From an uncultured Eubacterium sp. (GTDB lineage: Bacteria; Bacillota_A; Clostridia; Lachnospirales; Lachnospiraceae), in NCBI GenBank assembly GCA_947653505.1, contig CANTHI010000008.1:1-19615 (forward strand): a DNA stretch of 19,615 bases, in the 5' to 3' direction. The notes under the pieces were generated by a model, which saw only the letters and a list, made by a program, of their open reading frames with translations, did not search any database and was not told where the DNA came from. Both the position numbers and the translations under genes were made by a program. Below, in pieces: positions 1,695 through 19,352 of the stretch; within the stretch, counting starts at the first letter, position 1; the number at the start of each line of letters is the position of its first letter.

Positions 1695-1695
1695 T

Positions 1696-3744: not shown

Positions 3745-3771
3745 GAAGCTGCTCCTTTTCATGGGCTGTGA

Positions 3772-4001: not shown

Positions 4002-4280
4002 ATGACAGAAATCATTTTACTTATCATGGGCTGTTCTCTCGCTCTGTTGTTTTTTATATGGCTGGTATTTGGAAAAAAGATAACTTCCAAAACAGCTGCA
4101 CTTCTTATGGATATCGGACTGGTAGCGCTTTGCGCCGCCACGATCGTCTGTGGCCTGCTGCTGCGGCAGGAAAAATATCAGGATGCCGGCGCCGGGATCG
4201 TCACACCAATGAATCAGCAAACAGAAATACAGACACATACAGATACAGATCCCACAGTGGTTACACAAAGAGAAAGATAG
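4002..4280 (+). CDS. Small two-helix membrane protein, unrecognised
   Basis: 92 aa from the ATG at 4002. AAGGACGTGAT (3984-3994), one base off the ideal 11-base Shine-Dalgarno, sits seven bases before it. Longer in-frame starts at TTG 3918 and ATG 3960 precede or overlap the promoter and are unlikely. Residues about 3-23 and 33-54 are hydrophobic helices separated by a short basic GKKITSK loop, which predicts the loop in the cytoplasm and both ends outside. The C-terminus (about 57-92) is polar and rich in Gln and Thr. No family recognised. The gene ends 12 bases before the vWA gene, so it may be a small partner of that membrane protein. Confidence 0.7.
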   Translation: MTEIILLIMGCSLALLFFIWLVFGKKITSKTAALLMDIGLVALCAATIVCGLLLRQEKYQDAGAGIVTPMNQQTEIQTHTDTDPTVVTQRER

Positions 4281-4292
4281 GGGGCCAGAGGT

Positions 4293-6311
4293 ATGAAAAC
4301 TATAAGGAAAGCAGTCTTTGTGCTGCTGTTATCTGCCGTATTGCAGATACTGGCATGGCCGGCCGGGACCGTGTCTGCATCCGGAGCAGGCGGCGTGAAC
4401 AATATGAATGTCGTATTTGTACTGGATGGCAGCGGTTCTATGTATACGACGGATAAGGACCAGCTGCGGTTTGAGGCATTGGAGCTGTTTCTGGGTCTTT
4501 CAACGGAATCCGGCAATTATATGGGTGCAGTCGTTTTTGACGATGCGGTTATTTTAAAGCAGGAGCTTGTCCCGATTCATGGCAAAGCAGATAAGAGTGA
4601 GCTGTCAGGGAAAGTCCGCAAAGCGGTCAGCAATGGCGATACGGATATCGGCAGCGCGCTGCTGGAAGCCGTGCGGATGCTCAAACAGTCCGGCAGTCCG
4701 GATCTGCCGTCTGCGATTATTCTGTTGTCGGATGGGAATACGGATCTGCCTAAAGACCGGACGGGTGCAAAGCTGGCGGAGTCCGCGCACCGCAAGGCGG
4801 CAGCGATTGATTATGCCAGACAAAAAGAGATCAGCGTGCACGCGGTCTGCCTCAACGCTAATGGCAGGGCAAAGAAAGAAGAGCTGCAGGAGATCTCGGA
4901 TGCGACAGGCGGTACCTGCGTGGAAGTAAAGCGGGCGAAGGATCTCAAGGATGTATTTAATCAGTTTTACAATATTATCTATTCTACAAAGACGATGAAT
5001 CTCGTCGATACGAAAATACCGAAAAGCGGGGAATTAAAAGTACCGTTTTCGATTCCGGTCATAGGCGTGAAGGAAGCGAATATTATTATCAATACGCTGA
5101 ATCCGGATACGACCTACAACCTTTTTCATCCGCAGGGGTATGGGTATACGAGGGCAGAGCTGGATGATATGGTCATTCAGGCAAAGACGTTTACCGTGAT
5201 TAAAATCGAAAAGCCGGAGCCTGGGGACTGGGAGCTTGTAGTGCGTGGAGCGCGCAGGGATCAGGTCAAAATAGACATGGTTTATAATACCGATCTGTCA
5301 CTAAAGCTGCAGCACAAGGAACTGCAGTCCAGCGGACAGAAGGTCCAGTGGGAGCTTACCGTACAGGCGGCAAATGAAGGGGAGGCTGTGCCGAATGAAA
5401 AGGTCTACCAGCAGTATCCGTTCTGGGCCGTCATTACCGATCCGTCCACCGGGGATACCAGGAAGCTGGAGCTGGCGGCAGATGGGACATGCTGCAGCGG
5501 TCAGTTTGAAACAGAAGGCTATGGAAAATACAAAGTGCAGGCATTTTGTGAGATCGAGGATATGAAAGTAAGGTCTAATACCCTGAAGGTGCAAAAAGCC
5601 AATACGCCTCCGGAGTGGAAGCAGGATCCGGTCGTAATTGACAAAAAGATCCATCTGTTTTCCAGAAAGCTGTATACGCTGGATCTGAACACACTTGCAA
5701 AAGATGCGCAGGACAGCAGTCTGGAGTTTCGGATTGCGGATTCGGAGTTTGAAAAAGGGCAGGTACAGATTGCGGATGGTTCCGAATTAAAAATAAAGAT
5801 CCGCTCCTGCGGCAGCGGCAGTCTGACGGTAGAAGCGGTTGATCAGGCCGGGGCATCTGCACAGGCCAGGATACAGATTCAGACTACTTCTGTGACCGGA
5901 TGGATTGTGCTGGCAGTTATTCTGGTATTGCTGCTGGCAGCGTTGATTGTGTGCCTGCCGCTGATCCGTTCTTATCTGAGCATTGTGCGGGGCACGGTTC
6001 AGATTCTGACCTTTGGAGAAGATGGCACGGATCTGCCGGTTACATTTGATGGGGAAAAAGGCAGGATGTATCTGGCAAGACAGATTCATCCGTCGCAGGA
6101 TATCGGGATCCGGCTGGACAAGTGCTATCTGACTGCGGGAGAGAAAAACAGCTGGATTTATCTCATATCGGCAGACGGGTATTATTCCGATCAGGATGGG
6201 GGACAGAAGAAAAAGAAAATCCGTATCCGTGCAGGAATAGAAGTAACGATTAGCGGTGATGCTGATTTTGCGGATGGAATGCGGATTACGTATCTGCCGT
6301 ATCAGGACTGA
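4293..6311 (+). CDS. Secreted, membrane-anchored von Willebrand factor A (vWA) domain protein
   Basis: 672 aa. A signal peptide covers about residues 1-29 (basic start, hydrophobic core, VSA-S cleavage site). The vWA domain (about 38-215) has a complete MIDAS metal site: DGSGSM (45-50), Thr117 and Asp147 in LLSDGN. Beta-rich regions follow. About 440-533 resembles a cadherin- or Ig-like module (LAKDAQDSSLEFRI to VEAVDQAGASAQARI). A single membrane helix (about 535-557) leads to a cytoplasmic beta-rich tail of about 110 residues, possibly the part that contacts cytoplasmic partners. The vWA domain should therefore face outward and bind a ligand through a metal ion. The ribosome site (AGAGG) is weak, consistent with coupling to the small gene 12 bases upstream. 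Ligand unknown. Confidence 0.85.
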   Translation: MKTIRKAVFVLLLSAVLQILAWPAGTVSASGAGGVNNMNVVFVLDGSGSMYTTDKDQLRFEALELFLGLSTESGNYMGAVVFDDAVILKQELVPIHGKADKSELSGKVRKAVSNGDTDIGSALLEAVRMLKQSGSPDLPSAIILLSDGNTDLPKDRTGAKLAESAHRKAAAIDYARQKEISVHAVCLNANGRAKKEELQEISDATGGTCVEVKRAKDLKDVFNQFYNIIYSTKTMNLVDTKIPKSGELKVPFSIPVIGVKEANIIINTLNPDTTYNLFHPQGYGYTRAELDDMVIQAKTFTVIKIEKPEPGDWELVVRGARRDQVKIDMVYNTDLSLKLQHKELQSSGQKVQWELTVQAANEGEAVPNEKVYQQYPFWAVITDPSTGDTRKLELAADGTCCSGQFETEGYGKYKVQAFCEIEDMKVRSNTLKVQKANTPPEWKQDPVVIDKKIHLFSRKLYTLDLNTLAKDAQDSSLEFRIADSEFEKGQVQIADGSELKIKIRSCGSGSLTVEAVDQAGASAQARIQIQTTSVTGWIVLAVILVLLLAALIVCLPLIRSYLSIVRGTVQILTFGEDGTDLPVTFDGEKGRMYLARQIHPSQDIGIRLDKCYLTAGEKNSWIYLISADGYYSDQDGGQKKKKIRIRAGIEVTISGDADFADGMRITYLPYQD

Positions 6312-6392
6312 CAGAACTGTATGAACAGTATCGTATCGGCAGAATCGTATGAATGGTACGGTATTGACAGAATCATATTGAAAAAATTGTTT
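6309..6392 (+). repeat. Imperfect 28-bp direct repeats starting at the vWA stop codon
   Basis: Three units begin at 6309, 6337 and 6365, exactly 28 bases apart. Each starts with a TGACAGAA- or CGGCAGAA-like core followed by a TATGAA- or TATTGAA-like core. Units 1 and 2 agree at 20 of 28 positions; units 2 and 3 agree only in their first 17 (12 of 17). It may be a regulator-binding array or a decayed tandem duplication. Confidence 0.45.
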
Positions 6393-6402
6393 TACGGGAT
6401 AT

Positions 6403-6430
6403 TTGAATATCTACGGCTGTACTGTATAAG
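6403..6430 (+). promoter_or_regulatory. Possible internal promoter before the tubulin-like gene
   Basis: TTGAAT (6403-6408), 16-base spacer, TATAAG (6425-6430). The boxes match consensus at four and five positions. The 167-base gap between vWA and tubulin-like genes would leave room for separate control. A TTGACA at 6364-6369 lacks a matching -10. Confidence 0.3.
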
Positions 6431-6478
6431 CCGCAGAAAACGGGGAGCATTTTGGGTGATCAGAAAGGAAGAATATTT

Positions 6479-9400
6479 ATGGCGACATATGGACAGCTGC
6501 TGATCGATGCCGGCGGTGGGATTATTGACCGCGGCAGACAGTCTGACAGACAGGAAGGGGCATCGGTGATTCTGGGCCTTGGAGGAACCGGCGCAGATGC
6601 GGTGATCAAATTAAAACAGGAAGTATACAAACAGCTGCGGCCGGATGATACCGACGCGGTGATTCCCAGATATGATGCGGTCCGGTATCTGATTATCGAT
6701 GCGGATGATTCGCAGATACCGCGGACTTCCAATATTTCCGATATTGATAAAAGTACAGAGTTTTTTGCGCTTTCCAACAGCTCGATTAAGAGCACGTTTG
6801 AAGCGAAAGAGATCTTAAAGACAAGGCCGGAGCTGTACTGGCTGGACTATGAGAATATTTCCATTGATGAGGCCAGCAAAGGGGCGGGAGGTATCCGGCA
6901 GGTCGGCAGATTTCTGCTGGTGGATAAGGGGCAGGCGCTGTTTGCAAAGATAAAATCCATAATAGAAAGCGCGCTGGTTGCAGCCAGAACCGGAGAACTG
7001 GATATTCATATCTGCGCAGGACTGTCTGGAGGGACAGGCAGCGGCATTTTTCTGGACGTCTGCTATCTGGTGCGGGCGATCTTAAGACAGATCGGCAAGC
7101 AGGATGCGCGGGTCAGCGGATATTTTTTCCTGCCGGATGTGAATCTGTCCGTGCCGGTGATTCAGGAAAATCCGCTGATATCGGCTTATATTAAGGTAAA
7201 TGGCTATGCGTCCCTGCAGGAGCTGGATTACTGTATGAATTTTGGAAAAAATAAAGACAGCTTCCGGATGAATTATGGATTTATGACGGTAGATTCCGCG
7301 ATGAGTCCGGTGGATCTGTGTTATCTGATCTCGACTACGGATGCTTCGGGAAACCGTGTGCAGAACGGGTATCAGTATGCGATGGGAGTTGTCACGGATT
7401 ATATTATCAGCTTTCTGGCAAAGGAGACCAGCGGGTTTACCCTGCAGAGCCATATTGCCAATCTCAACTCCATGAAGGAAGGCATTCATGTACAGCATGG
7501 CGCAAATGTGGATTATAATATTCTGGGCGCGTCGGTTGCGGAGATGCCGCTGTCTGAGATCGCGACTTATCTGGGATGCCTGCTTTTTGAAAGCTACCAG
7601 CCGATGTATCAGAAAGTGCCGGTGGAAAAGGAACGGGATGAGTTTCTGACGAAAATGCGGCTCCAGTATGAGGATATCCAAAAAGAGCTGACACACGGAT
7701 GCACGGCGTCGCTTACCTTTGGCAAGGCTTATGACGCCAAAATGTATGAGCAGGGTGGCGATCATGCGTTTGTGAAACGGGCGGAACAGTTTCTGGCAGA
7801 CAATGCCGGTGTGATGGAAGATCATGCGAAGGCTCTGATACAGGAAATGGATGAATTTATGGTTCCAGGGCCAGGCACTTCCTTAATCAGCAGGACGTAT
7901 CGGGGCCTGTTTGATTCCTTTGCCACAAGGCTGGATTATGGTCCGATTTATGCGGGGCGGATGCTGGCTGGAGGAGATAACCAGAATCTGATCCACGCGG
8001 CAGATGGGTTTTTAAAGAAGAATGAAGAACTGCTTGCCCATGAGCTCAGCCAGACCGGACAGCGCGAGGATGAATACCGCGAAGCAAAGCGCAAGATGGA
8101 AAACACGAATTTCCTGAACAAAAAGTCCAGGATGGAGAACTATCTGCAGGCGCTGGGACAGCTGTATATGAGCCGTTACCGGATAGAACTGTATAAAAAT
8201 ATGGACATGGTGCTGCAGGAGTACAAACGGCAGCTGCGCAGGCTGCACCAGAATCTGTTCCGGATTCTTATGAACGTCATGGATACCCTGCGGGAGACCT
8301 TTGAGGTCAATAAAACCGTCCTGTCGCAAAGAGGGGTACAGGACCATCTATACACATGGAAAATACTGTCCATACCGGATGTGAAAGAAAGTCTGGAGCA
8401 GGAGATGAAGGAGCATGATCTTGGCCAGACGCTGTATCATCTGATGATGACCCTGTCTGAGCACTGCAGGGCATGGATCAATCAGGATGAAAACGAGATC
8501 CGCAAGCTGATTTCAGATTTTATTTTGCAGGAGTTTGAGAGCGCGACCAGACGGACCATGACGGATTACCTGAAAGAAAAATTCCGTGTGGATAATCCGG
8601 CTCTGCTTGCGGAAGCGGTAGAAAAGGAAATTATCAAAGACAAACTGGGCAGGGATTCCACGCCGTTATTCTGGAAAAATCCGATGTATAAAAACAGCAT
8701 GGGCATACACAGCTACCTGACTGTACCGTTTGACGCGGCAGAGATGAAAACCGCGGCGAAAAATTTTACCGACCGGGAGAAAGAGTTTACCGTACGGGAA
8801 TCCCATATTACAGACAAGCTGTCCATGATGCGGTTTTACAGCGGCATACCTATTTTTGCCTATCAGGGCATTATGGAGCTGCAGCGTGCCTATGAGGATG
8901 ATAAAAAAGCAGGCCGCCATCTGTTTGAGCGCGGAGATGTCAACTGGAACAGACTGCCGTCCCCGGTTCCGGAGAGTTTTAAAATCGATCTGCCGATAGA
9001 GCGGATCGCGCAGCGGAATCAGGCGCTGCTGCAGGAATTTGAACAGGCAGAGGCGGTTGGAGTCGTTGTAAAAGATGAATTTATGAACTGGCATATTCTC
9101 AGAACGCTGAATCTGGACGTTGCATCCTGGGTCCGGCTGATGGGCGGAGTCGAGTCCGATGGCAGGACCAATCCGAAAAAAATACAGGAGATACTCCCTC
9201 AGATCAGACAAAGACTGGAATCAGAAGTGAAAAATGCCTCCAGACTGCGGATCGAATATCTGAATACGGTAGCAGGCAGCGAAAGGCAGGTCATGCTGGA
9301 CTTTTATCTGCAGGCTCCGGTCTTGCATGAAATGGTCCATACCGAGTTGCAGAAGAGGCTGGAAGCGGACCGTCAGATCAGCCGGCTGGAGCAGCTGCTG

Positions 9401-9820
9401 CAGGATACCGTGGCAGAAAAAAGAGGAAAAAATGATTTTTTCAATGCGTTGTTTACCGGTGCGATTGCGTATGGCAGAAAAATCGTATTTCATTACGAAG
9501 AGTTCGGAATGGAAAAAAGCATCGAACTTCAGAACAGCAGTATGAAATACGGCCAGTCCGGCGCCTATCAGGCATTTCTGACTTACAGTACACTGGACGA
9601 AGCGCTGAAAGAAAAAATCAACAGCCGTACCAGACAGCTGCTGGATGAGGAAGATTCCAGTCAGGTACAGGAGACTGTGGATGCGCTGGAAGCAGCCATG
9701 CCGAAAAAAATACAGGGATATCTGGGTATTTATGACGAACTGGATCCCTTACATGAAGAGATTGAGACTTTTTACAGGGACTTTATGAAAACACTGGAAA
9801 GCTTTAAGCTTAATATGTAG
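6479..9820 (+). CDS. Large tubulin-like (Tubulin_2 family) GTP-binding protein
   Basis: 1113 aa from the ATG at 6479, which has AAAGGAAG seven bases upstream; an in-frame TTG at 6452 lacks a ribosome site. The N-terminal third is a tubulin/FtsZ-type nucleotide-binding fold. It shows a first glycine-rich strand-loop GLGGTGADA (about residues 33-41), a family hallmark RQVGRFLL (about 140-147), and the tubulin signature GGTGSG (184-189) inside CAGLSGGTGSGIFLD. The remaining roughly 750 residues are mostly charged and helical, with no membrane segment. This family is large for a tubulin homologue and often sits beside vWA genes. It is likely to bind GTP and may polymerise; that is inferred from the family. 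Its final residues LESFKLNM are the first unit of the tandem repeat that follows, and TAG interrupts that unit. Confidence 0.88.
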   Translation: MATYGQLLIDAGGGIIDRGRQSDRQEGASVILGLGGTGADAVIKLKQEVYKQLRPDDTDAVIPRYDAVRYLIIDADDSQIPRTSNISDIDKSTEFFALSNSSIKSTFEAKEILKTRPELYWLDYENISIDEASKGAGGIRQVGRFLLVDKGQALFAKIKSIIESALVAARTGELDIHICAGLSGGTGSGIFLDVCYLVRAILRQIGKQDARVSGYFFLPDVNLSVPVIQENPLISAYIKVNGYASLQELDYCMNFGKNKDSFRMNYGFMTVDSAMSPVDLCYLISTTDASGNRVQNGYQYAMGVVTDYIISFLAKETSGFTLQSHIANLNSMKEGIHVQHGANVDYNILGASVAEMPLSEIATYLGCLLFESYQPMYQKVPVEKERDEFLTKMRLQYEDIQKELTHGCTASLTFGKAYDAKMYEQGGDHAFVKRAEQFLADNAGVMEDHAKALIQEMDEFMVPGPGTSLISRTYRGLFDSFATRLDYGPIYAGRMLAGGDNQNLIHAADGFLKKNEELLAHELSQTGQREDEYREAKRKMENTNFLNKKSRMENYLQALGQLYMSRYRIELYKNMDMVLQEYKRQLRRLHQNLFRILMNVMDTLRETFEVNKTVLSQRGVQDHLYTWKILSIPDVKESLEQEMKEHDLGQTLYHLMMTLSEHCRAWINQDENEIRKLISDFILQEFESATRRTMTDYLKEKFRVDNPALLAEAVEKEIIKDKLGRDSTPLFWKNPMYKNSMGIHSYLTVPFDAAEMKTAAKNFTDREKEFTVRESHITDKLSMMRFYSGIPIFAYQGIMELQRAYEDDKKAGRHLFERGDVNWNRLPSPVPESFKIDLPIERIAQRNQALLQEFEQAEAVGVVVKDEFMNWHILRTLNLDVASWVRLMGGVESDGRTNPKKIQEILPQIRQRLESEVKNASRLRIEYLNTVAGSERQVMLDFYLQAPVLHEMVHTELQKRLEADRQISRLEQLLQDTVAEKRGKNDFFNALFTGAIAYGRKIVFHYEEFGMEKSIELQNSSMKYGQSGAYQAFLTYSTLDEALKEKINSRTRQLLDEEDSSQVQETVDALEAAMPKKIQGYLGIYDELDPLHEEIETFYRDFMKTLESFKLNM

Positions 9821-10033
9821 AAGATACAGGAAAGCTTTAAACTTCATATGCAGAAGATATAATGGGAAAGCTTTAAACTTCATATGCAGAAGATATAATG
9901 GGAAAGCTTTAAACTTCATATGCAGAAGATACAGGAAAGTTTTAAACTTCATATGCAGAAGATACAGGAAAGCTTTAAACTTCATATGCAGAAGACACGG
10001 GAAAGCTTCACCTTCAATATGCGGAAGACACCG
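9797..10033 (+). repeat. Seven-unit in-frame tandem repeat spanning the 3' end of the tubulin-like gene
   Basis: Units start at 9797, 9830, 9866, 9902, 9935, 9968 and 10001. Units 2 and 3 are 36 bases, the others 33, so every unit is a whole number of codons in the tubulin frame. The consensus encodes ESFKLHMQKIQ. Unit 1 is the real C-terminus and carries TAG at 9818-9820. Units 2 and 3 end in TAA-TGG. Units 4-7 are open, and unit 7 has drifted. Each early unit carries the palindrome AAAGCTTT and CATATG. There is no other feature in the 251-base gap to the next gene. Confidence 0.9.
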
Positions 10034-10071
10034 GGCAGCAGTATGCGCAACAACATGGAGAAAAGGAAAAC

Positions 10072-12126
10072 ATGCAGCAGAATCAGAATAAGATATTTCA
10101 AAACGGAAAACAGCTGCTGGAAAGCTGCGTCCGCAGGTTAAATGAAAAACAGCACGGGGAAACAGGCGGTAATGTGGCGCTCTGCCCGACCGTCCTGATC
10201 ATGCTCGGCACGAAAAGCAGATGCCATGCAAAGCATGTGAAGGCTACACTGGAGGATAACTGGAACAACGCCCGCTTTTTACAATATATAAATGTAGTAA
10301 AAACAGACGACGGCTGGCAGTGCTTTTATCCTGTACAGGTGCAAGTGCAGAAAGAGCCGGAAGTGCAGACAGCATCCGGACAGGAATTACAGGCAGCTGT
10401 ACAGAATACGAATGAACAGGAAGTGCAGACAGCTGCGTGGGACGGATATGTCTGGCAGGCAGCGGGCGTGGACTGGACGGAAGCGCTGAATCACGCGATT
10501 GTGACGATGCTGGAGACGGAGGAAAAAATCTTTTCCAGACGGACGATGATAAAAATGGAGTATCTTCTGGATGCTTCTGAAGAGAATGGTACACAGTATG
10601 CGGATCTGTATCTGCAGACGTCCAACGCGCTGCAGTCCGACGAACAAAAGGCGCTGTATCTGATGCTCGACCAGCGTCCGGGTGCAGGGCGTGTGGAAGC
10701 GTCGGATGCGCTGCTGCAGTATCTGGTTGCAAAAAGCGGTACGTGTGCGTGTATGGGAACGGTCTGGCTGCTGAGCAATTATCTGCAGTCTGGTCAGATG
10801 ATCGGGGATGCCAGAATCTGGCAGAACTACCGGCTGGCGGCGGATATCATGCTGCTGGGAGGCAGCCGGATGGAAGGAAACGGCGCCGCGGACCGGCTGT
10901 CCGGCGGATTCCGGACAGTTTCTTATGCACTTGTGACGAAGCCGGTAGAAGAGATCGCGGCAGTATCTTTGCGGACGCTGCTGCAGGAAATCTACCGCAA
11001 CGCGCAGAAGCAGCAGTATCGGGAACTGCCGGTCAGTGAGATTTCTGAAAAGCTCCAGATGGACCGCTATTATGGCTTCGCATTTCTGGAGGAGCTGTTT
11101 CAAAAGAAAATCTGTCCGAAGCTGCCGTTAGAAACAGACTGGAGCTATCTGCCGTTTGCGGGCGTACAGGAATACCGCAGGTTTATAAAAAGTCCGAATC
11201 TGACGATGGATGATGCGAATGCGCTTACGATGGGTGCGGCAGGAGAATTTTTAAACAGACAGTATCTGGAGCCGGCAGAGGATTTTTTATCAGATGAAAA
11301 AGAAATGCAGCAGTGCAGGGAAGAGATCTTTCAGCTTCTCCAGTCGCGGTTTACTTATTTTGAGCTGTTATATTTCCATGAGCATCCCGACCAGCTGAAC
11401 AGCATTCTGTCAGCAGAGTATCAGCCTGCAGGCATGGGGCCGGGGCGTGGAGTCTGCGCCAGACTGCACAGGCAGGGAGTTTATGAGTGCAGACGGATTT
11501 ATTACAGGAAAATGAAGCAGGTGACAGCTGACCAGATGCACCGGCTGATAACATATGCGCTGGATTTCCGGGATATGTATGCCGCGTGCGAAAAGGAAAT
11601 CCGTCACGAATGTATCATAACCGGTGATGAGTCGGAGTCTGTGGAGAAATTTTACAGTGGAATCGCGGCGGAATATGCAGCCCGGTCCGGATGGGAATCT
11701 GTTTTTTGCGTGACCAGTAAAAAGCAGGATCTGCTCAGGGATATCTGGGACATTTATCTGGGTCTGATTGGAGAAACGGTCTATGACTGTGACTTTGAGC
11801 AGGAGGTCGATTACCGGATGGACGGTATGGATGAGAAGCAGCGGCACGCATTTGTGGAAAAAGAGCTCCGGAAAAAGCTGGAGGGCAGCAGGAGACTAAA
11901 AAACAGTATCGAGATACCGATGACGCAGGCAGGATGCTTTTATATGGTCAATGCACGGGCGGATTATGCGAAAACGCTGGAGCAGGCGGAGCATGGCGCA
12001 TATGTGCTGTTTGACTTAAGCCGAACAGACTGCATCGAGCAGCTGGAAATCTATGAGATCTTAAAACCACAGCAGCTGCATCTGTATCTTGCCGGCAGAA
12101 GTGAACTGTATACAGATAAAGGGTAA
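10072..12126 (+). CDS. 684-aa cytoplasmic protein, family not recognised
   Basis: The ATG at 10072 has AAAAGGA (10061-10067) just upstream. No signal peptide or membrane helix is visible. The N-terminus contains a hydrophobic strand ending in glycine, CPTVLIMLG (about 38-46), followed by basic residues and then HVKATLEDNW. This could be a degenerate alpha/beta nucleotide-type fold, but no classical P-loop or tubulin signature is present. Residues about 85-125 form a Gln/Glu/Val-rich linker with a duplicated 14-base stretch (10360-10373 and 10420-10433). The rest is predominantly helical, ending in an alpha/beta segment (AYVLFDLSRTDC). Placed directly after the tubulin-like gene, it is a candidate binding partner or regulator of that protein. 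That is inference from position only. Confidence 0.75.
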   Translation: MQQNQNKIFQNGKQLLESCVRRLNEKQHGETGGNVALCPTVLIMLGTKSRCHAKHVKATLEDNWNNARFLQYINVVKTDDGWQCFYPVQVQVQKEPEVQTASGQELQAAVQNTNEQEVQTAAWDGYVWQAAGVDWTEALNHAIVTMLETEEKIFSRRTMIKMEYLLDASEENGTQYADLYLQTSNALQSDEQKALYLMLDQRPGAGRVEASDALLQYLVAKSGTCACMGTVWLLSNYLQSGQMIGDARIWQNYRLAADIMLLGGSRMEGNGAADRLSGGFRTVSYALVTKPVEEIAAVSLRTLLQEIYRNAQKQQYRELPVSEISEKLQMDRYYGFAFLEELFQKKICPKLPLETDWSYLPFAGVQEYRRFIKSPNLTMDDANALTMGAAGEFLNRQYLEPAEDFLSDEKEMQQCREEIFQLLQSRFTYFELLYFHEHPDQLNSILSAEYQPAGMGPGRGVCARLHRQGVYECRRIYYRKMKQVTADQMHRLITYALDFRDMYAACEKEIRHECIITGDESESVEKFYSGIAAEYAARSGWESVFCVTSKKQDLLRDIWDIYLGLIGETVYDCDFEQEVDYRMDGMDEKQRHAFVEKELRKKLEGSRRLKNSIEIPMTQAGCFYMVNARADYAKTLEQAEHGAYVLFDLSRTDCIEQLEIYEILKPQQLHLYLAGRSELYTDKG

Positions 12127-12127
12127 C

Positions 12128-12151
12128 AGACCGTAAGAATATGATTCAGGA
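12128..12151 (+). repeat. 24-base element, copy 2 (between two operon genes)
   Basis: Matches 3881-3904 at 22 of 24 positions. It fills most of the 37-base gap between the 684-aa and 225-aa genes and ends a few bases before the ribosome site AAAGGAG (12153-12159). It lacks the hairpin present beside copy 1. Confidence 0.55.
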
Positions 12152-12163
12152 TAAAGGAGCAGT

Positions 12164-12841
12164 ATGATCATAGAACCAATGACCCGCGACCATATCGTGC
12201 GGGAACTGACGTACAGCAGAGAGGCAGGAAATATCCGGCTCCGCTGGAGATATAAAGAGGCGTCTGATTTTCTTGTTTTTATATATGACGGACGGCAGAA
12301 ATTTGATCTGGAAGCGGTCTGCGCGCAGCTGGCTGACGCGGGATATGACGATGCGCAGCTGACGGGACAGACAAAGAGATTCCAGCCGGCCGGCGCTGAT
12401 GCGCGCTGCCGGCTGGCGTATATCCGCAAGGCAGAGTTTCAGCGGGAAGGCAGGTCGTTTTCATTTCCGGCCAGTGAGCTGAAAAAAGACCGCCCGTATG
12501 GAATACGCGTATATGCCTGCGTCATGGAGGACGGTCTTCGCGTTTTTCCGGCGGAGGCAGAGTACAATACCTGTTATTTTCCGGTAAAAATCAGGGCCGA
12601 TATCCGTTATCATACAAAGCCTTTTTCCAAAGAAAAATACTGTGTGCTGCGGTTGCCACAGATGGAAGATTATGCGGATGGCTCGCTCCGGTATCATGTG
12701 GAAGGAGCGTCCTGTGACATTCCGCTGCCGCAGTCCTGTCTGGGCAGGGAGCTGACGATCCGGATCCCCAAAAAGTCCGGTGTCAGCATCCGTGTGCAGG
12801 AAGCATATAAAAAATACTACAGCATAGCCCATTTAAAATAG
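12164..12841 (+). CDS. 225-aa beta-rich protein, possibly fibronectin-III-like N-terminal half
   Basis: The ATG at 12164 follows AAAGGAG by four bases. No signal peptide or membrane segment is seen. Residues about 12-145 alternate hydrophobic and polar residues in strand pattern. They include a tryptophan strand IRLRWRYKEASDFLVFIYDG and a late strand YGIRVYACVMEDGLRVFP, both reminiscent of fibronectin type III sandwiches. Residues about 146-225 look like a second beta domain (VKIRADIRYHT to GVSIRVQEAYKKYYSI). This suggests an adaptor or binding protein rather than an enzyme. It lies 17 bases before the GTPase gene, in tight operon spacing. The fold call is by eye and uncertain. Confidence 0.75.
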   Translation: MIIEPMTRDHIVRELTYSREAGNIRLRWRYKEASDFLVFIYDGRQKFDLEAVCAQLADAGYDDAQLTGQTKRFQPAGADARCRLAYIRKAEFQREGRSFSFPASELKKDRPYGIRVYACVMEDGLRVFPAEAEYNTCYFPVKIRADIRYHTKPFSKEKYCVLRLPQMEDYADGSLRYHVEGASCDIPLPQSCLGRELTIRIPKKSGVSIRVQEAYKKYYSIAHLK

Positions 12842-12858
12842 GAAGGAGTGAGTCCGGA

Positions 12859-14172
12859 ATGGAGATGGCAGACTGCAGGTGTCCGTTCTGCTTTCAGCTG
12901 TTTAGTCCGCAGAAGGCGGCATTTAAGGCAATGACCGTGTATGTCGGACAGGATTTTGAAGCAGGTATGATGGAAGAAGACGAGTTTGTACTGAAAAAAG
13001 GATACGAGATGGCAACGGATGAAAAATATGAGGAATTTTGGAACCAGTATCCAAACAGTGAGCCGGAAAACAGCTACAGGGATTATCCGGTCATTGACAA
13101 TCTCAGCGACCGGTATCTGCACGGGACTTATGAGGAGGATTCCAGCGGATTTATCTACCGGGCGGTAGATGCGTTCGGGGCGGCTACCAAAGTACGGATC
13201 TGCCCGCACTGTCATAACGTGCTGCCGTCTGAGTTTGGAAAGTATCCGGTGAAATATATCTCGATCGTAGGAATTACAAGCTCTGGCAAGACGGTCTATC
13301 TGTCCCAGCTGCTGAACCAGATCGAGGAATTTTTTGTCAGGGCGGGGCTGACGGTCGTAGGCACGTATGAGGAGGCAGAGCGGTTTCTGGAATACCATAA
13401 GATCCAAAAGGATCTCCCGCTGCCGCGGGGCAATGCGGCAGACGGGCTGATGCCGCCACTGGCGCTCAATGTCAAATGCAATCAGACGCAGCAGATTTAT
13501 ACGCTTGTCTTTTATGATATCGCAGGGGAAAACTGTGTCCGGCCGCTCCAGATGGAAAAATATGGGCCGTTTATCCGCAATTCGGACGGGATTTTGTTTA
13601 TGATCGATCCGGAGCAGTTTCTGGGCAGTCTGACAAAAGATGGAGAATTTGAAAAAGAAGCGCACAGTCCGGATAAAGTCATAGCGGCGATGTGGAACGC
13701 GTTTGTAACATCGGAAAATAAAGAAGGGCGGAGCAGCATTCCGCTGGCAGTCATCCTGTCCAAAAGCGATACGCAGACCGAAGTGCTGGATTACCGTTCT
13801 GCCCTGTTTTCCAATATCAGTTATCAGAACTATCCGGACCATGAGATCCCGCTCAAAGCATTTGCGGCTACGGATATGGAAGTGCGGCGGCTCCTGACGC
13901 AGCTAAACCGGAACAAGACAGAGATTTTGTGTAATAAACTAAACGAATGCTTTCCGACGCATTCCTTTTTTGCAGTATCCGCGCTGAACGCAAAGCCGCA
14001 GGAGCAAAAAGCCGCATACGACGGGGACTGCTATATGCTGGATGAAGATCCGGAGACCGTACGTGTGGAGGAGCCGGTCTTCTGGATCCTGTACCGGCTG
14101 GGCATCCTTCCGGTAAAAGAAGCGGAAACAAAACGGAAACGGGGCGGTCTGCTGCGGAAATTTTTTGCGTGA
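12859..14172 (+). CDS. Zinc-ribbon small GTPase (TRAFAC-like, possibly DO-GTPase2 family)
   Basis: 437 aa, cytoplasmic. The ATG at 12859 follows AAGGAG (12843-12848). Two CxxC pairs, C8/C11 and C115/C118, form a probable zinc ribbon, with an acidic insertion of about 100 residues between them. A complete GTPase core follows: Walker A GITSSGKT (138-145), switch II DIAG (220-223) in LVFYDIAGEN, a G4-like SKSD (301-304) in place of NKxD, and a G5-like SAL (374-376). I see only one GTPase domain, although related systems carry paired ones. The C-terminus is strongly basic (KRKRGGLLRKFF), suitable for contact with acidic lipids or nucleic acid. The gene precedes a GAP1-N2-like gene, the partnership proposed for GTPase-centred prokaryotic conflict systems. 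GTP binding is strongly supported; the exact subfamily is less sure. Confidence 0.83.
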   Translation: MEMADCRCPFCFQLFSPQKAAFKAMTVYVGQDFEAGMMEEDEFVLKKGYEMATDEKYEEFWNQYPNSEPENSYRDYPVIDNLSDRYLHGTYEEDSSGFIYRAVDAFGAATKVRICPHCHNVLPSEFGKYPVKYISIVGITSSGKTVYLSQLLNQIEEFFVRAGLTVVGTYEEAERFLEYHKIQKDLPLPRGNAADGLMPPLALNVKCNQTQQIYTLVFYDIAGENCVRPLQMEKYGPFIRNSDGILFMIDPEQFLGSLTKDGEFEKEAHSPDKVIAAMWNAFVTSENKEGRSSIPLAVILSKSDTQTEVLDYRSALFSNISYQNYPDHEIPLKAFAATDMEVRRLLTQLNRNKTEILCNKLNECFPTHSFFAVSALNAKPQEQKAAYDGDCYMLDEDPETVRVEEPVFWILYRLGILPVKEAETKRKRGGLLRKFFA

Positions 14173-14285
14173 TGGATATCAGCAAAGTGACTGGCTGCAG
14201 AAGCTGTCTGCGCTGCCGCAGGAATAAGATTTCGCATATAATAAAAACGCAGAATCAGGAAAAAGACAGGAGGAGATGTGGATGA
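14172..14285 (+). CDS. Possible 37-aa cysteine-rich peptide, translationally coupled at both ends
   Basis: The ATG overlaps the GTPase stop (TGATG at 14170-14174), and the stop overlaps the start of the next gene (ATGA at 14282-14285). The peptide therefore fills the whole gap in this otherwise compact operon. It contains GCRSCLRCRRNK, a CxxCxxC motif next to basic residues (Cys 9, 12, 15), a possible metal-binding knuckle. It has no ribosome site of its own and would depend on ribosomes terminating on the GTPase gene. No family is recognised. It could equally be a chance frame or remnant of a lost 3' extension. Confidence 0.35.
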   Translation: MDISKVTGCRSCLRCRRNKISHIIKTQNQEKDRRRCG

Positions 14286-16816
14286 AACTGTATCAGGCAG
14301 GATATTTCCGGCTGGGCGGGCGTGGGAGCGGCGCGGGATGGAAGCTCGTGGCACCATCTGCCGGCATGTCCGAGATTGCAAAGGCCGGATTTCGCGGCAT
14401 TGCGTCCAGGCTGGCAGATTTAAGACAGACGGTACAGGTACCGCAGACGGCTATGGGACTCTTCCGGCACGAACGGTTTGTGTATCTGATGCATGTAAAT
14501 TACGCGGCAGCCGGAGAAGACAGCCGCGGCGTGGCTTATGTGCACGGGTACTGCTTTAATCTGGCGGAATATTATCAGATGGCGGTCCAGCCGCAGCTGC
14601 TGTTTGGCGTGCCGCAGCAGGAGTTTGACATGGAATACCAGCCGCAGCTGTCTGCCTATCCGGTGCGGGAAGCGCTGGATTACCGCAACCTGAACGAACG
14701 CAGGCTGCTGGATCAGTATCATTTATCCGCGGAGCAGTATAAAAAGCTGATTCTGGGAGCCATCTGCGCACTGGAAGGCTATACAGGCCCGATGTGTATC
14801 CGTTGCGGCGTGCGTCAGGAACAGGGGATACAGACCTGGCAGGAGCTGATGTATCTGATTATGAAAGGACTGCCCTATCATCTGCGGCAAAAGCTGCTGT
14901 CTTTTTCGTGTCAGGGAATGAAGACGGCGGTTTACTGTTCTGACCAGGTGCAGGGGGAAAATTATGCGGATCTGGATACGGGGAATTTTTCCTGTGACTA
15001 TTCCAGACTTGCCGGATATCATTTTACAAAACTCTATCAGATGGAGCTGTTTTACAGCAGCAGGGACAGCAGGGAACAGATTTTTCAGAATATGGCAGGC
15101 TTTATCGGAGAGGTCTGGACAGATCCGCTCAAAGAAGCCGGATGCGCGATGATCGAGGCCGCGTTTCAGAATATCGTAAAAAAAAATGACGACGGCATTG
15201 ATCCGCAGCAGGCAGCCGGTCTGCTGCAGGATTTTCTGGGCAGTGAGATATCCTATGGCAGCCGCACGGCTGAATATGTGGCGGCGCTGCTGGATGCCAT
15301 AAATGAGGGCGGGATTCCGCTTACCGATCCGAAGCTGTCTGCCGCTGTCCGGCAGGCGTATGGGAAATGCCCGCACGATCTGCTGCTGGAGCCGGTGGCG
15401 CTGTGGTATGCCCGCAGTATCCGGGACCAGTATGCGGGGAGCCGGAACAAGGATGCGGGCTTTGCCGTCCTGATCGGACTCAGGGAAAGCGGCGGCAGCG
15501 ACCTGTATCCGGCAGTCTGCCGCTGTCTGGAGCGACTGGATCCGGATTATTTTTCAGACTATTTCTGGAACTGTTTTTTGCCGGGCGAGCTGACGACGCT
15601 CAAAAAAGCAGAGCGGTTTTTCAAAAAGAACGGACAGACGTTTACGGCAAAAGAGCACCAGCAGTTTCAAAAGCTGCTGAAAGAGCTGACAGAACGCGAG
15701 ATGAAGGAAGCAGGCAGCTTTGAAGAGCTGTGCATCGCAGCTCAGGTCACAGACCGGATCCGGTGCTCTTTAGCTGCGCCAGACCGCTATCAGCAGCTGT
15801 GGAAAGAGGTCTGCCGGATGCTGTGGGATCATTTTACAATGGACTGGTTTGAAACAGACAGCATCCGGGCTTACCGGCAATATGAAGTACAAAAAACCGC
15901 GTGCCCGAACGCGAAAAAAGTCAGCCGGCTGGCGGAGCTGGCAGAATCTGCCGCGGACTGTATGGATGCATGCCGTCTGTGGGAGATGCTAAACACCGGC
16001 CAGACCAGCGAAGACAGGAAATACGGGCGCATGATCCGGCGCGGGCTGCGGGAAGCGTTTTTCGCAGGCGCGCCCGTTATGAATACAGACTCCCTGGACC
16101 GCTCCCTTGTTTTCTTTTACGATCCTGAAAAAAAGCAGTTTGATCTGGTAAAATGGATTACCTGGTGGAAAAAACAGACAGATCTGGCACAGGCATCCGC
16201 AGACTTTGCGGTGTTTGGCACAGAATCCGCCCTGCTGGCAGACGGGGATCGCAGGGCATGTGTCCGGCAGTATTTAAAACAAACCGCGTACAACCATCTG
16301 CAGCCAGACGTCAGGCAGGCGCTGCGTTGTCTTTCCGACAGCCTGAACGACAGCCGGACAGGCGGCGCTGGCACGGGATATCTGCTGGCAGATTACCTGC
16401 ACCGGGAAATACTCAGCCTGTTTGTACTGCTGACACTGGCAGTCTGCGGCATCTGTCTGAGAAGGTATGGCAGCGGGGATATCGTGATTTCGATGGTTTT
16501 TGTGGTCTTTACAGCAGTCGGACTGGCCGTGTCTGCTGCGCTGCGGATGATGACCGGTGTGGGCAGCAGTCAGTCCCATATGGCGGATGCAGATGTGATC
16601 CGCCGCAGGATCGGTACAGTGGGAGCAGAGTCAGAAGGCGGACGGGAAAAAGTTCTTTCCGGGTGTCTGTCTGCTGTCGTGCTGGCTGCATTTACAGCAG
16701 CAGCGGTACTGGCGTACCGGTATGGCGGATTTACGGAAAAAGCAGTGTGCCTGATGGTGTTTCTGGCACTGACGGCAGGGATGGTACTGGTTTCCGGATT
16801 GCTGATGCGGGAGTGA
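14282..16816 (+). CDS. GAP1-N2-like GTPase-associated protein with four C-terminal membrane helices
   Basis: 844 aa from the ATG at 14282, eight bases after AGGAGG (14268-14273); an ATG at 14276 is too close to that site. The N-terminal region (about 1-200), opening MKLYQAGYFRLGG with GWKLVAPSAGM soon after, resembles the N-terminal domain of GTPase-associated protein 1 (GAP1-N2). The GAP1 family is described from clusters with TRAFAC-type GTPases. The middle is long and helical without an obvious catalytic motif. Four hydrophobic helices lie at about 711-727, 733-754, 791-812 and 819-841, giving a hairpin pair, a charged cytoplasmic loop and a second pair. It probably anchors the GTPase system at the membrane. 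The domain call is from remembered family appearance and needs a profile search. Confidence 0.7.
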   Translation: MKLYQAGYFRLGGRGSGAGWKLVAPSAGMSEIAKAGFRGIASRLADLRQTVQVPQTAMGLFRHERFVYLMHVNYAAAGEDSRGVAYVHGYCFNLAEYYQMAVQPQLLFGVPQQEFDMEYQPQLSAYPVREALDYRNLNERRLLDQYHLSAEQYKKLILGAICALEGYTGPMCIRCGVRQEQGIQTWQELMYLIMKGLPYHLRQKLLSFSCQGMKTAVYCSDQVQGENYADLDTGNFSCDYSRLAGYHFTKLYQMELFYSSRDSREQIFQNMAGFIGEVWTDPLKEAGCAMIEAAFQNIVKKNDDGIDPQQAAGLLQDFLGSEISYGSRTAEYVAALLDAINEGGIPLTDPKLSAAVRQAYGKCPHDLLLEPVALWYARSIRDQYAGSRNKDAGFAVLIGLRESGGSDLYPAVCRCLERLDPDYFSDYFWNCFLPGELTTLKKAERFFKKNGQTFTAKEHQQFQKLLKELTEREMKEAGSFEELCIAAQVTDRIRCSLAAPDRYQQLWKEVCRMLWDHFTMDWFETDSIRAYRQYEVQKTACPNAKKVSRLAELAESAADCMDACRLWEMLNTGQTSEDRKYGRMIRRGLREAFFAGAPVMNTDSLDRSLVFFYDPEKKQFDLVKWITWWKKQTDLAQASADFAVFGTESALLADGDRRACVRQYLKQTAYNHLQPDVRQALRCLSDSLNDSRTGGAGTGYLLADYLHREILSLFVLLTLAVCGICLRRYGSGDIVISMVFVVFTAVGLAVSAALRMMTGVGSSQSHMADADVIRRRIGTVGAESEGGREKVLSGCLSAVVLAAFTAAAVLAYRYGGFTEKAVCLMVFLALTAGMVLVSGLLMRE

Positions 16817-16869
16817 CAGGGCTTTATAGGGACAAGGAGTATCAGGAAAAAACAGGCAGGAGAAAAGGA

Positions 16870-18039
16870 ATGAGCAAAAGCCACTATTCGATAAAGATGC
16901 TGATTGGAAGTATTCTGGCAGGTGTACTCTGTGGACTGGCCGGAGAGCTGTTTTATCAGCAGGTGGAACGCACTATGTCACATATCATCATGACAACCAT
17001 CTATTTTACAGGCATGTATCTGCTGCTGGGACTTGCCGTATATGGCATAGGAAGGCTGGGATATGCCAGCTTTGGAGGTTCTGTAAACCGCAGGCAGTGG
17101 ATGACAGCTTTTATACTGATGGCGCTGCTTTCCGCGTTGTTTGCATGGATCTATGGATGGATCGGGACAGGCGGGAGAGAGCGCGTGTCTTCCTATTTAT
17201 TTGTCATCGACAATTCCGGCTCTATGGACCAGACGGATCCGTCCGGCATGCGTTATCAGGCGATTGAAAAGCTGCTGGAGAATAAGGACCCGGATTTTTC
17301 GTACGGAATCTATCATTTTTCAGATTCCGCGCAGCTGGTCAGAAAGATGGCTCCGGTCAGCGCGGGCGGGCCTGTGCAGGAACCGGAAAACGGCGGCGGT
17401 ACAGCCGTCATACATGCGCTGGATACGATACTGGACGATCTGGATACAGGCACACTGCAGCTGGATCACCATTGCAGAATGATCCTGCTCAGCGATGGCT
17501 ATGCCACGGACGTCAGTGATACGACCCGTTATGAATGCATTCGCAGACTGGAACAGTTTGCAGACCGCGGTATATCGATCAGTACTGTCGGAATGACAGG
17601 CGGCGTGGACACACAGCTGCTGATGCTGGCAGCGGACAAGACAGGCGGGACTTATGTCAGCGTACAGAATGTAGAGCAGCTGGAAGAAGGCATGCGGCAG
17701 GCGGCGCAGGCAGAGGAAGGCAGCAGAAATCTGCTTGGCTACCGTAGTGAGAAAGACACCGGACTTTTGTTTTCTGCAATGCGGATCTTTTTTGTAATCG
17801 TTCTGGGTATGCTGATCGCTGTGGAAAAGACCGTATTGTGCGAGCGGTTTTTAAATACCAATTCCGTACTGGCCAGTTCAATGATCGGCAGCGCGCTGGC
17901 CGGCATCTGTCTGGAAGCCGGCATGAATACGCTGGGGCTGCATCCATCCGCGATGCGGATTGCAGTCTGCGTGCTGACAGCATTTACCCTGCTGCGGGAA
18001 GATGCGGTGCCGCCGGAATCTGCAGAGGGGCTTTATTAA
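16870..18039 (+). CDS. Polytopic membrane protein with an outward-facing vWA domain
   Basis: 389 aa from the ATG at 16870, with AGGAG (16858-16862) seven bases upstream. The frame stays open far upstream inside the previous gene, but that part is a shadow. Three membrane helices (about 10-27, 38-60, 78-97) come first. Then comes a vWA domain (about 107-285) with an intact MIDAS: DNSGSM (114-119), Thr178 in GGGTAV and Asp209 in LLSDG. Helices follow at about 299-318, 332-350 and 360-376. The basic loop GRLGYASFGGSVNRRQW between helices 2 and 3 should be cytoplasmic, which puts the vWA domain outside. This is the second outward vWA protein of the operon. The next gene starts 18 bases on. Similar in plan to BatA/BatB-type vWA membrane proteins, but not assigned to them. 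Confidence 0.83.
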   Translation: MSKSHYSIKMLIGSILAGVLCGLAGELFYQQVERTMSHIIMTTIYFTGMYLLLGLAVYGIGRLGYASFGGSVNRRQWMTAFILMALLSALFAWIYGWIGTGGRERVSSYLFVIDNSGSMDQTDPSGMRYQAIEKLLENKDPDFSYGIYHFSDSAQLVRKMAPVSAGGPVQEPENGGGTAVIHALDTILDDLDTGTLQLDHHCRMILLSDGYATDVSDTTRYECIRRLEQFADRGISISTVGMTGGVDTQLLMLAADKTGGTYVSVQNVEQLEEGMRQAAQAEEGSRNLLGYRSEKDTGLLFSAMRIFFVIVLGMLIAVEKTVLCERFLNTNSVLASSMIGSALAGICLEAGMNTLGLHPSAMRIAVCVLTAFTLLREDAVPPESAEGLY

Positions 18040-18057
18040 ATCAGGAAGGAACCAAAA

Positions 18058-19260
18058 ATGAAAAAAGTTATTCATGTACTGTTGTATGGCCTGCTGCTGA
18101 CAGTTACGATTACAGGAATGCTTGGAATCCGGTATTTTATCATTCAGGAATCCGGGCGTATCGGGCAGGAAGCGGAGCGGCAGCTGGCCGCCAAAAAGGC
18201 TGAGGCAGACAGGCTTCTGGAGCAGGAAGCGGCCAGACAGGCGGAAAACAGCCGTATGGTTCTTGTAAAAAGACTTCCTATATATAAAGATAGAAAGATC
18301 GTAAAGATCAAAGCGGATGAAAAAACACAGATGCCCGTATATGGCGATACAGTTACCCTGCTGCAGGAGGACAGCCTGTACGCACAGATCCGGACAGAAA
18401 ACGGGCAGACTGGTTATGTATGGAAGGACTGTATCGGAAAGCTGCCAGCTGGAAATGCGCAGCCGGAGGGAAATGTACAGTCAGAAGGAAGTGCACAGTC
18501 AGAAGGAAATGCCAGGCCGGAGGGAAATGAGCAGCTGGAAGGAAATGCGCAGCCGGAGGGAAATGAGCAGCTGGGAACAGGTGGTAGTGTGCACCAGTCA
18601 GAAAAGGTAGTTTTGATAGCAGTAGAAGATTCAGCCATATCCGCAGATCAGAGTCAGTTGTCTGAAGAACAGGGTGGGGAACAGCAGCCATCTGAAAGTA
18701 CACAGCCGGAAGTATCCGGGGAGATGTCAGAACACACGCAGGCGGATCCGGGGCAGGATTTGCTGAGCCGGCAGGTAGCGCTGAGACTGGAAAAAAGGCT
18801 GGAAGAACGCGGGTATACTGTGATTATGGCTGTGGGATCAAAGACAGATGCGGTCAGCGGTACAAAGAGTGCGGAACTGGCCAGTCAGATTCTGGCAGAT
18901 GCCATGATCCGGCTCTGTGCCGACGCCAGCGCGGAGCCTGCGGTCTGTGGAGCGTCTGTATGCTGCAGCGCCAGCGACGGCAGTTCTGCGGCTGTCAGAA
19001 CTTATGCTGACAGCAGAAAACTTGGAAAATACGTATTGAAATATTATACAAAGGCTACTGGCTTCACGAATGCAGGGATTTGGGAGAGTGATGCGGATCC
19101 GGCTCTGCAGCGCAGTAAAAGACCGGCAGTTGTGTTAAAGCTGGGGGATCTGATACATGAAGAGGAAAGCCGCAGGATGAAAAAGCCAAAGTTCCAGGAA
19201 AAAATGGCGAAAGGGATTGCGGATGGCCTGGATGCGTATTTCCGGAAGCTTCTAAGATGA
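18058..19260 (+). CDS. Membrane-anchored SH3b protein with a degenerate N-acetylmuramoyl-L-alanine amidase (Amidase_3) domain
   Basis: 400 aa; AGGAAGGA (18043-18050) is seven bases before the ATG. Residues 7-29 form a signal-anchor helix and about 36-63 a charged, coiled-coil-like stalk. About 68-128 is an SH3b domain (YGDTVTLLQEDSLYAQIR, then GYVWKDC). Residues 132-172 are hexapeptide repeats. About 182-398 follows the Amidase_3 layout: LASQILADAMIRLCADASAEPAVCGASVCC aligns with the usual ADxxVSIHxNA strand (first part only quoted as pattern), SRKLGKYVLKYYTKATG with the helix after it, and PAVVLKLGDL with PAVLVELGFL. The zinc histidine of SIH is Cys287, the catalytic Glu is Lys361, and the N-terminal DPGHGG is absent. 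It is therefore predicted to bind peptidoglycan without cutting it. Last gene of the operon. Confidence 0.8.
   Translation: MKKVIHVLLYGLLLTVTITGMLGIRYFIIQESGRIGQEAERQLAAKKAEADRLLEQEAARQAENSRMVLVKRLPIYKDRKIVKIKADEKTQMPVYGDTVTLLQEDSLYAQIRTENGQTGYVWKDCIGKLPAGNAQPEGNVQSEGSAQSEGNARPEGNEQLEGNAQPEGNEQLGTGGSVHQSEKVVLIAVEDSAISADQSQLSEEQGGEQQPSESTQPEVSGEMSEHTQADPGQDLLSRQVALRLEKRLEERGYTVIMAVGSKTDAVSGTKSAELASQILADAMIRLCADASAEPAVCGASVCCSASDGSSAAVRTYADSRKLGKYVLKYYTKATGFTNAGIWESDADPALQRSKRPAVVLKLGDLIHEEESRRMKKPKFQEKMAKGIADGLDAYFRKLLR
18451..18573 (+). repeat. 18-bp repeats encoding a hexapeptide linker
   Basis: Nearly seven units with consensus GNAQPE, including GNVQSE, GSAQSE, GNARPE and GNEQLE, between the SH3b and amidase-like domains. 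A flexible acidic spacer in the extracellular region; copy number may vary between strains. Confidence 0.85.
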
Positions 19261-19311: not shown

Positions 19312-19352
19312 GCCTGTTTTGTGGCTGGATGCCGGTCACAGGCAGGCTTTTT
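19312..19352 (+). terminator. Rho-independent terminator of the main operon
   Basis: GCCTG (19312-19316) pairs with CAGGC (19343-19347), with an inner TGTG/CACA stem (19320-19323 and 19337-19340), followed by TTTTT (19348-19352). It lies 51 bases after the last stop codon and is the only terminator-like element I see after 4000 on the plus strand. Confidence 0.65.

Follow-up and report, generated by a model that had tools for sequence, protein, structure and literature searches.

What would a bacterium do with an operon that sets a tubulin-like GTPase beside a switch GTPase and a group of envelope proteins? This question is raised by a 19,615-nucleotide stretch of DNA from an uncultured Eubacterium sp. 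of the Lachnospiraceae (contig CANTHI010000008.1, assembly GCA_947653505.1; the whole stretch is referred to here as the window), in which nine genes, all on the plus strand, occupy positions 4002-19260 (open reading frame [ORF] coordinates; Table 1). Our reading, to which we assign even weight, is that the operon is a divergent GAP1-N2/DO-GTPase tubulin variant that works as a membrane switch, with outward sensors, a DO-GTPase/GAP1 relay, and a filament of the tubulin and a tubulin-fold partner.

A six-gene core recurs in other genomes

Genome records found with a profile of 27 tubulins yielded 68 loci (numbered with an L), and profiles were then made for every window gene. The core order vWA1-tubulin-P684-P225-DO-GTPase-GAP1 is uninterrupted in 37 of the 68 loci, the kind of recurrence that an earlier sequence-only reading of the window had named as support; P684 and P225, both overlooked in that reading, belong to this core. 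Three loci (L002, L017, and L045) hold all six core genes with an extra ORF in between and are not among the 37, in 21 the available DNA stops no more than 300 bp beyond the outermost core gene, and 7 (L053, L055, L058, L065, L066, L067, and L068) depart from the core order. Where the DNA continues, vWA1 is followed by the tubulin in 50 of 52 cases, the tubulin by P684 in 48 of 58, P684 by P225 in 46 of 46, P225 by the DO-GTPase in 44 of 45, and the DO-GTPase by GAP1 in 41 of 48, the last two steps counting one operon twice because L015 and L046 overlap. Three of the 10 tubulin-to-P684 misses are Clostridium loci with a P684 homolog in that place. L066 apart, the DO-GTPase-to-GAP1 misses (six, all within the 37) have the GAP1 gene present and are apparently due to a called GAP1 start that overlaps the GTPase gene. 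The full core is found, among others, in Clostridia and Coriobacteria as well as in Bifidobacterium callimiconis and Lactococcus hodotermopsidis. With only 7 of the 68 loci departing from the order where no end of the DNA is in the way, the genes are not scattered in relatives.

The distribution is patchy. Strong P684 matches were obtained in 3 of 299 genomes from the family of L005's genome and in 2 of 391 from the class of L015's genome, both panels including their own center genomes; four of these five were already among the 68 loci (two being the panel centers), and the sole new one, G204, carries the same core genes (L079). Genomes with Tubulin_2 above its cut-off numbered 16 in the first panel (299) and 11 in the second (391). 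All five strong P684 matches share a contig with a Tubulin_2 gene, and in these panels no strong P684 match occurs without a tubulin, whereas a tubulin often occurs without P684. In addition, the genes diverge at uneven rates: the window and L002 are 80% identical in the tubulin, 77% in the DO-GTPase, 70% in vWA1, 68% in vWA2, and 66% in a small membrane protein, versus 58% in P684, 51% in GAP1, 49% in P225, and 46% in an amidase-like protein.

Patchiness and uneven rates both favor a conflict system, in which the tubulin polymer would be the effector of an infection-triggered response and the outward parts would sense phage or attack by neighbors, a role proposed for the whole class in the relevant passages of Kaur et al. 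2020 (PMC7159879). We consider this possible, at somewhat less than even weight: PADLOC returned no match at E values up to 0.1 for eight window proteins (the 4002-4280 product was outside this set), no toxic enzyme in the operon was recognized by Pfam or NCBIfam, rapid divergence is no proof of an arms race, and the panels contain their own centers.

A second protein, P684, with a predicted tubulin fold

The tubulin-like protein of the sequence-only reading was confirmed as FtsZl1 (Tubulin_2, PF13809; E 4e-54) and keeps intact T1 and T4 GTP motifs. Its predicted structure has a helical insertion in the C-terminal subdomain and an extra C-terminal region. A strict pattern found both motifs in 65 of the 83 long tubulin ORFs of the loci; the misses are mostly extra paralogs and genes cut at an end, together with the core tubulin of L050. 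The tubulin alignment comprised 72 chosen sequences. Extra paralogs lie upstream of the core tubulin in L008, L036, L042, and L045 and form an array in L011, and several of those in these five loci keep T1 without the strict T4 motif.

The next core protein, P684, is predicted to have a tubulin fold, as expected of the tubulin superfamily, and its predicted structure shares the helical insertion with that of the tubulin. The T1/T4 motifs were found by the strict pattern in none of 49 P684 relatives (the 54 matches less five shorter than 550 amino acids [aa]), and we therefore name it a tubulin-fold partner rather than a tubulin GTPase; at the expected T4 position, the family has an acidic consensus. 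Pfam gave no match to P684 over its cut-off and NCBIfam none, profiles of P684, the tubulin, and GAP1 gave no convincing match among PDB sequences, and no publication describing a comparable inactive tubulin partner came up in literature searches. This suggests that, of the two tubulin-fold proteins of the variant, one escapes the sequence libraries.

P684 might instead be a tubulin-fold adaptor or cap, bound to the filament end or to the GTPase, and not a polymer subunit, as the missing motifs, the acidic consensus at the T4 place, and its faster evolution than the tubulin could indicate. We regard this as rather unlikely given the near-strict adjacency, the shared insertion, and the correlation of the tubulin and P684 identity matrices (r 0.96 over 741 pairs from 39 loci, a value that none of the other 14 of 15 gene pairs reaches), which fit a structural pair, although a cap is still compatible with them. 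The P684-GAP1 correlation is 0.95 and those of vWA1 are the lowest (0.72-0.81), all of these values being uncorrected for shared ancestry.

A different Tubulin_2 operon was observed in L069-L073, consisting of a ~735-970-aa gene (matching the vWA profile in L072 and L073), a tubulin, a ~650-690-aa gene, and a last gene of 1100-1450 aa with a hydrophobic beginning. No DO-GTPase or GAP1 was detected in these stretches, and the operon may represent a sister system. Homology of P684 to the ~650-aa gene after these tubulins found no support.

A DO-GTPase is paired with a divergent GAP1

The small GTPase of the sequence-only reading was confirmed as DO-GTPase2 (PF19993; 37.4 bits versus a cut-off of 27). 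Its Walker B glutamate, E224 (YDIAGE), is invariant in 20 aligned sequences, and its CPxC pairs, C8/C11 and C115/C118, precede the P-loop and are compatible with one or two zinc ribbons. When viral contigs were searched with the GTPase, three stretches fit a pattern and none encoded a relative.

The GAP1-like partner claimed in the same reading is supported by profile bridging but not by family libraries: no Pfam family matched the window protein up to E 1, and NCBIfam gave none. Among the Pfam families obtained for 29 GAP1-like members, the 25 listed of 41 include no GAP1 model, and each of the others matches one member at an E value above 0.18. Proteins of 893 and 369 aa from Clostridium carboxidivorans (L055) match PF20013 (E 9e-40 and 1e-39) and PF20014 (1.4e-14 and 2.9e-16), respectively. 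A profile of 47 window-type relatives, made without L053, L055, and L065, finds the 369-aa GAP1 of these three loci at E 5e-11 to 3e-9 (best 5.4e-11), in matches that span parts of both GAP1 domains. Because the 47 came from rounds that included Clostridium proteins, the test was repeated with 18 first-round relatives, none from Clostridium, and the same GAP1 was found at E 5e-8 to 7e-7 (best 5.4e-8). A profile-profile comparison (hhalign) of the window-type and known GAP1 gave E 7e-14. Collectively, these matches identify the window protein as a divergent GAP1, so that a GAP1 (N2 and M domains) downstream of the GTPase is present by homology, not by Pfam.

In the Ruminococcus operon L066, positions 17914-21294 encode a 1127-aa divergent GAP1-type protein (hhalign E 7e-8) with hydrophobic segments at its end; any P684 and P225 counterparts there are too divergent for the profiles used.

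P225, the fast-evolving protein encoded before the GTPase, is a possible counterpart of the FNIII component known from this class (see below). For the window protein, neither PDB sequences nor Pfam yielded a match, to FNIII or otherwise, and NCBIfam gave nothing; across 40 family members, Pfam matches were scattered and weak, the strongest having an E value of 0.0024.

Proteins predicted to face the envelope

Both vWA proteins match Pfam VWA (E 5.9e-14 for vWA1), and a simple hydropathy count, with three hydrophobic segments before the vWA domain of vWA2 and one after it, supports an outward orientation of the two domains, in keeping with the two outward vWA proteins of the sequence-only reading. 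A quick N-terminal pattern search found the metal-ion-dependent adhesion site (MIDAS) motif in 45 of 54 long vWA1 proteins; of the remaining nine, several start at a poorly called site. YtkA gave no match in the window vWA1 and a weak one in L055 (E 3.6e-5, below its cut-off). The small protein at 4002-4280 has homologs, among the 68 loci, in L001-L005 only, a close clade.

The last gene matches Amidase_3 (E 5e-19), with an SH3 match below its cut-off. Compared with L004, whose protein keeps the motifs, the window, L002, and L005 have lost those at the positions of the family's zinc ligands. The enzyme thus appears dead, as had been claimed, and as judged from these residues the pseudo-amidase probably binds wall material instead of cutting it. 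It has an active-type relative, because L004 keeps the ligands. An 18-bp repeat (window 18451-18571) encodes a polar, repetitive linker between SH3 and the pseudo-amidase and is absent in L002, L004, and L005.

These wall domains, and the zinc ligands of L004, could also point to membrane remodeling or envelope maintenance, with the tubulin shaping or repairing the membrane; remodeling was proposed for FtsZl1 operons with vWA, GTPase, membrane, and peptidoglycan partners in the part of Makarova & Koonin 2010 that treats them (PMC2875224). This seems unlikely, given that the amidase occurs in three loci besides the window (L002, L004, and L005) of 44 with >1.2 kb after GAP1, that two of the three have lost the ligands, and that accessory, patchy presence speaks against housekeeping.

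A ~340-aa family encoded downstream in other loci gave no Pfam match in the two members tested, and its reading as a diverged vWA2 found no support.

Gene layout and transcription signals

The plus-strand run described earlier was confirmed from 4002 to 19260, but intergenic stretches of 167, 251, and about 109 bp interrupt it. The single strong promoter was not supported, as 21 promoter-like sites were counted versus 21.7 by chance, two of them within the tandem repeat that separates the tubulin from P684. Terminator-like sites are above chance (30 in the whole window versus 16.5; standard deviation, 4.3). Two gene starts were corrected, that of the tubulin from TTG 6452 to ATG 6479, because its closest relatives are 1113 aa long, and that of the second vWA gene from 16153 to near 16870. 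Rfam and tRNA scans of the window gave no matches.

Table 1. Features of the operon and its flanks in the window
Feature	Position	Strand	Characteristics	Basis
Small membrane protein	4002..4280	+	Predicted transmembrane (TM) segments	Hydropathy
vWA1	4293..6311	+	Signal-type segment at the N terminus, one TM segment at the C terminus, MIDAS DGSGS in the vWA domain	Pfam, hydropathy
Tubulin/FtsZl1 (Tubulin_2)	6479..9820	+	T1 and T4 GTP motifs intact	Pfam
Tandem repeat	9796..10028	+	33-36 bp by eye, period 33 by TRF; two promoter-like sites	
P684, predicted second tubulin-fold protein	10072..12126	+	Without GTP-binding motifs	Predicted structure, motif search
P225	12164..12841	+	Fast-evolving small cytosolic protein; followed by DO-GTPase in 44/45 loci	
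DO-GTPase2	12859..14172	+	Two CPxC pairs, P-loop, Walker B AGE, SKSD	Pfam, alignment of 20
Divergent GAP1	14282..16816	+	Four C-terminal hydrophobic segments	Leave-out profiles, hhalign, hydropathy
vWA2	16870..18039	+	TM segments on both sides, MIDAS DNSGS	Pfam VWA (E 1.1e-10), hydropathy
Pseudo-amidase	18058..19260	+	N-terminal TM segment, weak SH3, repeat-rich linker, Amidase_3	Pfam, hydropathy
Terminator-like hairpin with T run	19318..19342	+	After last gene	

The repeat behind the tubulin stop codon consists of copies of the last codons of that gene. The corresponding gap holds a different 40-bp repeat in L001 (6100-6244), and no tandem repeat was found there in L002. A 28-bp tandem repeat of 2.5 copies lies in the vWA1-tubulin gap of the window (6310-6378). 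The repeat-bearing 167- and 251-bp gaps, the promoter-like sites inside the second, and the lower correlations of vWA1 could mean that the operon is really two transcription units of different function, one for the tubulin/P684 half and one for the membrane half, which is very unlikely with the core order held from Clostridia to Coriobacteria, Bifidobacterium, and Lactococcus.

Upstream of the operon (window 549-3762) lies a Ter-type set (PRTase_2-TRSP, StiP-PELOTA, and C-C bond lyase). It was found in none of the 68 related loci (up to 10 kb beside the tubulin match) and is therefore probably an unrelated neighbor; a literature search with Ter terms found nothing.

A proposed membrane switch

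In the switch that we propose, the vWA and SH3/pseudo-amidase proteins, predicted to face outward, would act as sensors of the envelope, and their signal would be passed on by the DO-GTPase together with GAP1. The tubulin with its GTP motifs and P684 without them would likely build a filament or scaffold, the two assembling together. The GTPase/GAP1 pair may be seated at the membrane through the four C-terminal segments of GAP1 and gate the polymer, and the stimulus could be an envelope ligand (phage attack or wall damage). The sequence-only reading had likewise proposed a transmembrane switch on a polymer, which fits the anatomy and the recurrence of the genes; it had missed the predicted second tubulin-fold protein and that the set was already described.

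Several observations weigh against this proposal. The profile comparison of P684 with the tubulin gave no support (probabilities of 1.7 and 0.3 percent), and their kinship therefore rests on the predicted fold. Foldseek returned for P684 one match at E <= 0.001, weak by itself (TM 0.21/0.39; root-mean-square deviation, 12.4), and the matches ranked just below it include dynamin-like chains. Neither the tubulin nor P684 has conserved acids at the model-suggested T7 loop, and polymerization and GTP hydrolysis may therefore be unusual or absent. In each genome panel, one genome absent from the Tubulin_2 list gives a borderline partial P684 match (E 8e-4), and the mirror correlations lack correction for shared ancestry. 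Of 43 long GAP1-like proteins, a set that includes that of the window, 32 have no predicted TM segment, so that the four C-terminal segments are a minority trait. The membrane end of the operon is variable among loci, the position after GAP1 being held by the ~340-aa family in 28 loci (27 distinct) and by vWA2 in 6. The small protein of L055 matches P225 weakly (probability 24). To these are added the silence of PADLOC and literature searches that found no experiment on the class.

A more specific form of the proposed switch, which we find rather doubtful, is a filament that alternates the GTP-binding tubulin with a tubulin whose nucleotide site is erased and that is switched from outside via a Ras-like GTPase, i.e., a prokaryotic receptor-to-GTPase-to-cytoskeleton pathway. 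Should the two proteins assemble together, nucleotide control in a naturally occurring tubulin polymer would fall to one subunit only, and bacteria would have a path, by way of a small GTPase, from events at the surface to the cytoskeleton. A defined pair of predicted tubulin-fold proteins with one nucleotide site erased, beside a switch GTPase and outward sensors, offers a biochemical handle on the predicted GTPase-tubulin class.

Comparison with known systems

The FtsZl1 operons treated in PMC2875224, for which the passages concerned give no functional test, resemble the window in having FtsZl1 with T1/T4 and, in one operon, vWA and P-loop GTPase genes; relative to that account, the window adds GAP1, the tubulin-fold partner, and the pseudo-amidase. 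Like BtubA/BtubB and the Asgard AtubA/B (PDB entries), the window has two tubulin-fold proteins, and these are encoded together. It differs in that one partner is without GTP motifs and that both carry large helical insertions in the predicted structures. The BtubA/BtubB and AtubA/B pairs are likewise encoded together.

C. carboxidivorans L055 (also L053 and L065) has vWA1, the tubulin, a P684-type partner, a DO-GTPase, and GAP1 in the same order as the window. These loci differ in that vWA2 lies between the partner and a small protein with a weak P225 match, extra DO-GTPase and GAP1 genes lie upstream, GAP1 is Pfam positive, and no amidase was found.

The closest description is that of Kaur et al. 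2020 (PMC7159879), and in the light of it the set is not undescribed. As set out in the passages on these systems, tubulins occur in about 52% of GAP1-N2 neighborhoods, and Firmicutes versions have two tubulin and two vWA genes. Features of the tubulin theme are one multi-TM vWA protein with an outward vWA and another fused to YtkA, an FNIII-repeat component, and two N-terminal zinc ribbons on the DO-GTPase. A role in biological conflict is proposed there for the whole class, and the same passages give no functional test. With this tubulin theme, the window shares the DO-GTPase, GAP1, the tubulin, two vWA proteins (one multi-TM with its vWA predicted outside), and a near-membrane location. It also has two tubulin-domain genes, the second visible by predicted fold only, and P684 may or may not be the second tubulin meant there. 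The window differs from the theme as described in the added pseudo-amidase, in a vWA1 without a YtkA match, in the lack of a detected FNIII, and in a GAP1 too divergent for Pfam. PMC7159879 gives the Firmicutes subtype a polar C-terminal GAP1 extension and other GAP1-N2 systems C-terminal TM segments; in the window, four hydrophobic segments replace the polar tail, and the operon is therefore a variant of the class rather than a member of the Firmicutes subtype.

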